This document shows, one piece after another, positions 46,361-48,175 of a DNA stretch of 48,175 nt. Numbering within the stretch: the first letter of the stretch is position 1; every line of letters begins with the position of its first letter. Source of the stretch: Flammeovirgaceae bacterium (lineage in GTDB: Bacteria; Bacteroidota; Bacteroidia; Cytophagales; Cyclobacteriaceae). The stretch is from assembly GCA_002691385.1 (NCBI GenBank), contig NZHT01000033.1, forward strand, positions 1 to 48,175. Reading direction: 5' to 3'. Both the position numbers and the translations under genes were made by a program. Under the pieces are notes generated by a model, which was not told where the DNA came from, ran no database searches, and was given only the letters and a program-made list of their open reading frames with translations.

Positions 46361-46840
46361 ATGAATCGAAATACACTCATCATCATTACTTTAATAACAT
46401 TCTCGATGGCCATAGTTTCCCGCTATCAAGTACTAGGACAAAATAGAAAAAAACAAAAGAAGATAACTCTTGCCACCAACCATGCTAAATCTTTTATTGG
46501 TACGCCCTACCGATATGGAGGGAACTCCAAAAATGGCATCGATTGTTCTAGTTTGATTCAACAATCTTATGCAATAATCGGCATTAAGATGCCTAGAACG
46601 GCGCAAGAGCAAGCTAAAATGGGCAATAAAAAAGGAGAAGGCGGTGTAAGACCAGGCGATATTGTTTATTTCAAATTCAAACAAAAACGAGAAAAATGGT
46701 GGCATACAGGTATGGTCACCTATGTAGACAAAGGTAAAATCAAATTTGTTCATGCTTCTTCAAGCAGAGGTGTCGTTGAAGATACTTACAACGATTACTA
46801 TAAAAAACATACAAAATACTTCCGAAGGGTTATCAACTAA
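46361..46840 (+). CDS. C40 (NlpC/P60) family peptidase
   Basis: Catalytic region YRYGGNSKNGIDCSSLIQQSYAIIGIKMPRTAQEQA, PGDIVYFK, WWHTGMVTYVD. Confidence 0.93.
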   Translation: MNRNTLIIITLITFSMAIVSRYQVLGQNRKKQKKITLATNHAKSFIGTPYRYGGNSKNGIDCSSLIQQSYAIIGIKMPRTAQEQAKMGNKKGEGGVRPGDIVYFKFKQKREKWWHTGMVTYVDKGKIKFVHASSSRGVVEDTYNDYYKKHTKYFRRVIN

Positions 46841-46873
46841 AAATCTTAATGTATTTTAGCCACTTTAAATAAT

Positions 46874-46947
46874 GGGGATGTAGCTCAGTTGGCTAGAGCG
46901 CTTGACTGGCAGTCAATAGGTCATGAGTTCGAATCTCATCTTCTCCA
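46874..46947 (+). tRNA. tRNA-Ala (anticodon GGC)
   Basis: GGGGATG-TA-GCTC...GAGC-G-CTTGA-CTGGCAG-TCAAT-AGGTC-ATGAG-TTCGAAT-CTCAT-CTTCTCC-A cloverleaf; T33 followed by GGC anticodon; no encoded CCA. Confidence 0.88.
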
Positions 46948-46991
46948 CTTAACTGTGCCTCTAGCTCGGCTATCTTTTCTTCGTTTGTCAT
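46893..46991 (-). other. short ORF MTNEEKIAELEAQLSGEDEIRTHDLLTASQAL* running antisense into the tRNA
   Basis: ATG at 46991, stop TAG inside the tRNA; first ~16 codons coding-like and similar to the fragment at 47786-47980; the remainder is tRNA antisense. Confidence 0.45.
46942..46970. repeat. left copy of imperfect direct repeat overlapping the tRNA-Ala 3' end
   Basis: TCTCCACTTAACTGTGCCTCTAGCTCGGC; 22 of 29 bases match 47946-47974 by hand alignment. Confidence 0.5.
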
Positions 46992-47092
46992 TTCTTAGTT
47001 TTAAACAATCTTAATTTATAATTGAATCCAATCACTTTGTCTAGTGGTGTCTCAGGAGTCTTTTTTATATTACCATGACAAACTTTTATCAA
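46988..47092 (-). pseudogene. 3'-end remnant of an unidentified gene
   Basis: Minus-strand frame ...KVCHGNIKKTPETPLDKVIGFNYKLRLFKTKK* whose TGA overlaps the ATG of the MTNEEK ORF; no upstream gene body. Confidence 0.35.
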
Positions 47093-47108
47093 AAAAAAGA
47101 ATAAAAAA

Positions 47109-47804
47109 ATGAAAAATTTAACGTTTATAATACTTATGTTTTATTGCAGTATTAGTTACGCCCAAACTATAGCTACTGATAGACCAAGCGCACTCACTGA
47201 AAATGCCTCAACCTTGTTTAATAATGGATTACAGTTAGAAACAGGAATCCAAATTAATAGTGATTATAATGAACTTACAACCAGTTCTATTCCAAATTTT
47301 TTGATAAGATATGGAATTACAAACAAAATAGAAGTTAGGATAATGAACGATTTACTTTATAATGAAATAGGTCAAATAAACTTAGGAAATTGGACACTTG
47401 GGAGTAAAATCCAACTTATTGAAAATGATCAATACACTATTTCACTATTACCATCCATTCAATTTGATGGATTTTCAGGAGAATTCAGTACAATCATAGA
47501 CCAACCTGTTAATACAAAAATTGTCGGAAATTGGGTTTTAAGTTCTTCTATGATTTTAGGATATACTCTTGGTTATACCTTAAACGATAAAATCTTAGGA
47601 TACTCTATATTAATTAGTAAATCTCTAAATGATAAGTTTACCACATTCATAGAATTATATGGTTTTAACAATGAAATAAATATTGACTCAGGAATAGCTT
47701 ATCTAATAAATGATAAACTTCAATTTGATACTTATTTTGGAACTGGCTTAAATACTAAAATGATATTTGGTTCCATTGGTTTAAGCTATCTATATTTAAA
47801 ATAA
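47109..47804 (+). CDS. putative outer-membrane transporter-like protein (MetA-pathway/phenol-degradation family-like)
   Basis: Signal peptide MKNLTFIILMFYCSISYAQ; TIATDRPSALTENASTLFNNGLQLETG motif and beta-barrel-like body. Confidence 0.65.
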   Translation: MKNLTFIILMFYCSISYAQTIATDRPSALTENASTLFNNGLQLETGIQINSDYNELTTSSIPNFLIRYGITNKIEVRIMNDLLYNEIGQINLGNWTLGSKIQLIENDQYTISLLPSIQFDGFSGEFSTIIDQPVNTKIVGNWVLSSSMILGYTLGYTLNDKILGYSILISKSLNDKFTTFIELYGFNNEINIDSGIAYLINDKLQFDTYFGTGLNTKMIFGSIGLSYLYLK

Positions 47805-47980
47805 CAAATGAGATACAAAAATAAGTTCATTATATCATTAGTTATCTTTATAAAAGCTTCACACTCAGGATCATCAATGTCACAGATTCCTCTGGATTCC
47901 TTCAGCTTGTGTATTTGACCCCTAATTTTCATATTATTCCACATATCTCCAGTTAATTTTGCTTCGAGGTCAGCAGTCAA
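47786..47980 (-). pseudogene. fragment of a small coiled/cysteine-containing protein
   Basis: LTADLEAKLTGDMWNNMKIRGQIHKLKESRGICDIDDPECEA followed by non-homologous tail; no proper start (in-frame TGA just upstream). Confidence 0.45.
47946..47974. repeat. right copy of imperfect direct repeat
   Basis: TCTCCAGTTAATTTTGCTTCGAGGTCAGC; matches the tRNA-Ala 3' flank. Confidence 0.5.
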
Positions 47981-48111
47981 TCGTCAGATAACCCATAGTC
48001 TTGACGCTACAGATTTTAGTTTTTCAAGTTGTACCAAAAATCGAAGCTGTATAATATTAAGAAAAAATTATTTACTTATATTAGAGTCTAATTAACCATA
48101 AATCAATTCAA

Positions 48112-48175
48112 ATGAACATCTTAATTAAAGGGAAATGTACTTCCAGCTATGATGCAGTACATGAAGATTTTCTAA
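48112..48175 (+). CDS. 5' end of an ORF truncated by window edge
   Basis: ATG at 48112, open to the end: MNILIKGKCTSSYDAVHEDFL. Confidence 0.3.
   Translation, partial: MNILIKGKCTSSYDAVHEDFL

Follow-up and report, generated by a model that had tools for sequence, protein, structure and literature searches.

The tRNA-Ala locus and the segment behind it

We analysed a window that comprises the whole of contig C98 (48,175 bases) of genome G000, an assembly of 129 contigs that is 90% complete. At its right end an NlpC/P60-family gene precedes an intact tRNA-Ala(GGC), which is followed by a segment with one outer-membrane-type open reading frame (ORF) set among gene fragments and recurrent repeats (Table 1). 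The comparison set consisted of nine same-genus genomes (G001-G009), mostly draft assemblies. One of these congeners is a Cyclobacteriaceae metagenome genome. The NlpC/P60-family gene was found in eight of the nine. In an Rfam scan of the window and two array loci, the tRNA was the sole match. Contig C98 stops at 48175, inside the insert. This end lies only ~200 bases past the right arm of the repeat discussed below, leaving the right-hand portion of any insert out of view.

Table 1. Features at the right end of the window, with the evidence for each.
Feature	Position	Strand	Evidence and remarks
NlpC/P60-family gene	46361..46840	+	Pfam NLPC_P60 E 6e-22; conserved backbone, upstream of the tRNA in congeners
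tRNA-Ala(GGC), intact; hotspot	46874..46948	+	ARAGORN; Rfam 64.7 bits; displaced 3' halves in G001, G006, G007 and G008
Left junction TCTCCACTTAA	46942..46952	.	11-bp overlap of tRNA end/old flank and small gene; 11/11 with G009, 10/11 with G005
Small-gene copy 1, truncated at the tRNA	46942..47043	-	First ~16 codons (start at 46991) and upstream region; G005 alignment
Repeat B, terminator-like (GGTGTCTCAGGAGTCTTTT)	47046..47064	+	Recurs in 9/10 genomes of the genus
Exchanged gene block	47085..47807	+	93.5% over 725 bp to G002:C2:787019-787743
Outer-membrane-type ORF, 231 aa, signal peptide	47109-47804	+	Weak Pfam Phenol_MetA_deg match, E 7e-4, below curated cut-off
Small-gene copy 2, decayed at both ends	47855..47968	-	G005 alignment; 3' end = repeat A
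Module D, third recurrent repeat	47961..48029	+	nhmmer E 1.5e-20; further copies in arrays and at three recombinase loci
Beginning of another ORF (MNILIKGKCTSSYDAVHEDFL), truncated where the contig stops	48112..48175	+	Sequence; no clear relative in the loci compared

A sequence-only reading of this DNA had described the segment as accessory, holding one outer-membrane-type gene and gene remnants, and we found this to be so. Its G+C content is 0.285, against 0.360 for the window, and none of 230 backbone windows of the same size is as low. The match of the outer-membrane-type gene to G002 runs from 24 bp before the gene start to 3 bp after the stop, and at 93.5% it contrasts with only 84% identity between the NlpC-tRNA backbones of the two genomes. 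The G002 copy is out of synteny, and its direction with respect to the repeats that flank it is reversed. A relative with 83% DNA identity is present in a Crocinitomicaceae metagenome genome, and none was found in viral contigs and plasmids. Because of this composition and gene relationship, the segment is foreign accessory DNA.

States of the site in the genus

The region downstream of tRNA-Ala is polymorphic among the congeners. Neither a conserved, syntenic arrangement nor a lack of size polymorphism was seen, the two outcomes named beforehand as speaking against an integration footprint. Three congeners have the usual genes directly 3' of the tRNA, four have displaced fragments and two have another insertion. 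The uninterrupted site, one mark of a tRNA island, is present in G002, G003 and G005; the order NlpC, tRNA-Ala, Kazal-like ORF, esterase, glycosyltransferase is common to G002 and G003, and G005 matches it over the roughly 700 bp seen. Displaced tRNA-Ala 3' fragments, which are classic tRNA att scars, are held by G001, G006, G007 and G008. The ~7.6 kb inserted behind the G007 tRNA comprise two tandem islets, as shown by a pair of displaced tRNA 3' halves, and G001 carries the first of these islets (1.5 kb). A ~170 bp remnant separates the tRNA of G008 from a displaced 3' half with the older T-arm; in G006 a contig end interrupts the tRNA, and the displaced half, itself decayed, lies on another contig. 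In congeners the duplication takes in the tRNA from the anticodon arm (ACTGGCAGTCAAGAGGTCG, intact or decayed) onwards, including the 3' end, and reaches into the old terminator. G004 and G009 show the other insertion type, with an intact tRNA-Ala behind the insertion. At the G004 locus (L186, G004:C9:10000-22900), a full-length but decayed copy of tRNA-Ala lies next to NlpC and the intact tRNA-Ala ~3.5 kb on; the insert between the two contains modules of the gene arrays described below.

Given these uninterrupted, occupied and scarred states, tRNA-Ala(GGC) is a genuine insertion hotspot of the genus. It is probably used by tyrosine integrases, in common with the target sites of tRNA-targeted islands at large (PMC4383910). 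The locus resembles Islander-type islands and islets (PMC4383910) in having an intact tRNA at the edge with accessory DNA beyond it, in having relatives that are either occupied or uninterrupted, and in the regenerated tRNA plus displaced fragment of congeners. It differs from them in that no displaced fragment was found in G000, where the contig ends within the insert, and in that a fragment of a small gene, fused across 11 bp of overlap, forms the edge. For an integrase gene, the window part of the insert, whose right part is unassembled, showed none, and the only recombinase detected in G000 is a XerD-like one.

The main rival to the reading that we favour is an ordinary integrase-made tRNA islet. 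It would have its attR, a displaced tRNA-Ala 3' half, past 48175 in the unassembled gap that precedes contig C88, with the repeat as incidental cargo. The intact, regenerated tRNA-Ala at one end of the G000 insert is as seen in tRNA islands, exactly such displaced halves exist in four congeners, and the old downstream genes restart on C88, 35-193 bases from its start by the relative compared. The right boundary is past the contig end, where an attR may lie. We nevertheless consider this explanation unlikely. The intact tRNA provides the one tRNA-Ala 3' end in the whole G000 assembly, in which C98 ends inside the insert, and no displaced half was detected anywhere in it; moreover, the flank is lost at the 11-bp small-gene overlap, whereas G001, G007 and G008 have an element-specific flank. 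Searches of G000 for the Kazal-like ORF and the MAKAYVLGSL ORF found neither.

We also considered the T-arm differences of the G000 tRNA as a sign of integrase swapping. This was rejected because most of them are shared with G004 and G009, and G004 is the nearest congener here. The T-arms of the tRNA and the displaced copy in G008 differ, which fits a true swap in that genome.

Repeat arms and junctions

The sequence-only reading had proposed that a repeat of the tRNA 3' end and flank (46942-46970 and 47946-47974) could be the attL/attR pair left by an element that had integrated there and has since largely disappeared. The 22/29 match is present at these positions. As a bare DNA repeat it is weak, since 22 is the best 29-mer self-match within 46874-48175 and one of 30 shuffles reaches 22. 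Each arm has its counterpart in one and the same G005 small gene, to which the left arm region (46942-47043) aligns at 80% over 102 bp (E 1e-17) and the right arm region (47856-47968) at 77% over 119 bp (E 8e-20). This gene encodes ~50 residues (MNEEKIAQLEAQLTGDMFADMDIKDQIHKLKLEAAGGSCDIDDPECEACGS in G005) and is recurrent in the genus; a single-copy relative ending in CxGCGS is found in many other genera of the family. Most of the gene is kept in the second copy, from which the first codons and the CGS end are gone. Integration at the tRNA would account for the position at the tRNA 3' end and the 22/29 match, and is in keeping with the foreign segment and the congener hotspot. As an account of the repeat it is extremely improbable, however: the match barely exceeds that of shuffles, the small gene accounts for the sequence of both arms, neither T-arm nor old flank is found at 47946, true att repeats at this site begin in the anticodon arm, and the G005 small gene carries the 29 bases while intact and away from any tRNA. 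The earlier proposal was thus borne out in part, by the polymorphic tRNA site and the foreign segment; its att pair was not supported, and its own caveat, that the repeat could reflect two copies of one small gene, proved correct.

The tail of the small protein (SCDIDDPECEACGS in congeners; window 47855-47900; L249, L260, L275) is very similar to the redox tail at the C-terminus of class I ribonucleotide reductase. For comparison, the host NrdA ends in CSLDDPEGCEMCGS and an NrdA-like ORF on a viral contig in CAIDDPECEACQ. Viral contigs also encode a small stand-alone protein that has this tail (L249). A role as substitute for a missing ribonucleotide reductase tail was rejected, as the host NrdA has its own.

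At the left junction, the window tracks the G009 tRNA and flank through TCTCCACTTAA, and from TCTCCA on it tracks the small gene (TCTCCAGTTAA in G005), which places the join within 46942-46952. This junction is known from a single genome, and its 11-bp overlap is suggestive of short-homology joining rather than proof of it. The right arm is chimeric as well: the small-gene alignment continues to about 47967-47968 and module D begins at 47963 (TCGAGGTCAGC), giving a 5-bp overlap. Such composite ends could be an assembly chimera, with array DNA that does not adjoin the tRNA end in the actual chromosome, and a 129-contig draft together with array repeats that often lie close to contig ends in the compared genomes would favour one. 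Assemblers usually join on words longer than 11 bp. The junction overlaps of 11 and 5 bp fall below such word lengths, and an end-overlap search for contig linkage found no match between the last 200 bases of C98 and other contig ends, which makes a chimera very improbable.

In G002:C5, module D immediately follows a tyrosine recombinase gene at its stop codon; in G002:C2 and G009:C15 it is found ~1.1 kb away from recombinase matches. Copies occur within arrays and near three different tyrosine recombinase genes or remnants (L173 292-360; L180 1387-1458; L169 302-372). Module D could be a recombination site.

Accessory gene arrays and the origin of the islet

Repeat A, the 3' end of the small gene, is carried by every one of the ten genomes (G000-G009). 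Repeats A and B cluster amid small accessory genes, often close to contig ends, and 86 of 88 repeat copies in the loci scanned are on the majority strand of their own locus (20/20 in G002:C4 and 9/9 in G007:C40). The ends of shared blocks lie within 40 bp of a repeat in 31 of 124 cases, against 5.5 expected and a maximum of 15 in 300 shifts; some of this excess would arise in any case, since an alignment breaks off at the end of a conserved repeat. Shared array blocks (L132, L133, L136, L137, L134) are up to 99% identical between species, an example being 3267 bp at 99.4% between G001:C86 and G002:C10. A recurrent gene for a 158-aa protein with no Pfam match (L144 1764-2240) precedes repeat B in its long form in several arrays.

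These arrays resemble integron cassette arrays and CALINs (clusters of attC sites lacking integrase) in that small accessory genes are separated by repeats in a single orientation and the same gene occurs in arrays of different species. They differ in that their repeats are remnants of coding sequence that lack attC cores and arms, no integrase of the integron type adjoins them, and the exchanged gene is inverted relative to the repeats in G002. When 284 kb of arrays were scanned for attC sites, 14 core pairs were counted, where shuffles gave 2-10; none of the 14 had paired arms, and 46801-48175 contained no attC site. Folding of the A-B repeat was not significant. One integron-integrase-like protein was detected, below the TIGR02249 cut-off and without array repeats alongside; it occurs in G007 only, apart from a broken form in G003. 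On the attC scan, the folding and the lack of an adjoining integrase, we rejected the arrays as integrons or CALINs. Among the titles and abstracts of literature on integrons in Bacteroidetes and on CALINs, none concerned such arrays. Exchange of gene cassettes by a non-integron system, with gene-sized blocks swapped between species at directional repeats A, B and D and the islet as one cassette at the tRNA, is a decidedly doubtful extension of these observations.

We favour, with a probability of about two in three, an islet of array DNA at the tRNA-Ala hotspot whose fusion to the tRNA came about through recombination at short homology. Beside the identity of the repeat arms, the two junctions, the exchanged gene, the low G+C and the congener states of the site, this reading is supported by the recurrence of repeats A and B in arrays of uniform orientation and by the array modules in the G004 insert at this same tRNA. 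The islet would have replaced or displaced the usual DNA after tRNA-Ala(GGC). Array-type DNA most likely reached the hotspot, perhaps first through an integrase-made islet, and a later recombination across TCTCCA[C/G]TTAA would have fused the tRNA end to the left small-gene copy, deleting the old terminator of the tRNA and the 3' part of that copy. The islet is a mosaic of truncated small-gene copies, repeat B, repeat D and a horizontally exchanged outer-membrane-type gene, and is DNA of the array type.

In conclusion, the att-site reading of this locus is replaced by a better supported one. For uncultured marine Bacteroidota, the comparison establishes a tRNA-Ala hotspot that is uninterrupted, occupied or scarred among members of one genus, and it points to repeat-separated accessory gene arrays without integron hallmarks.
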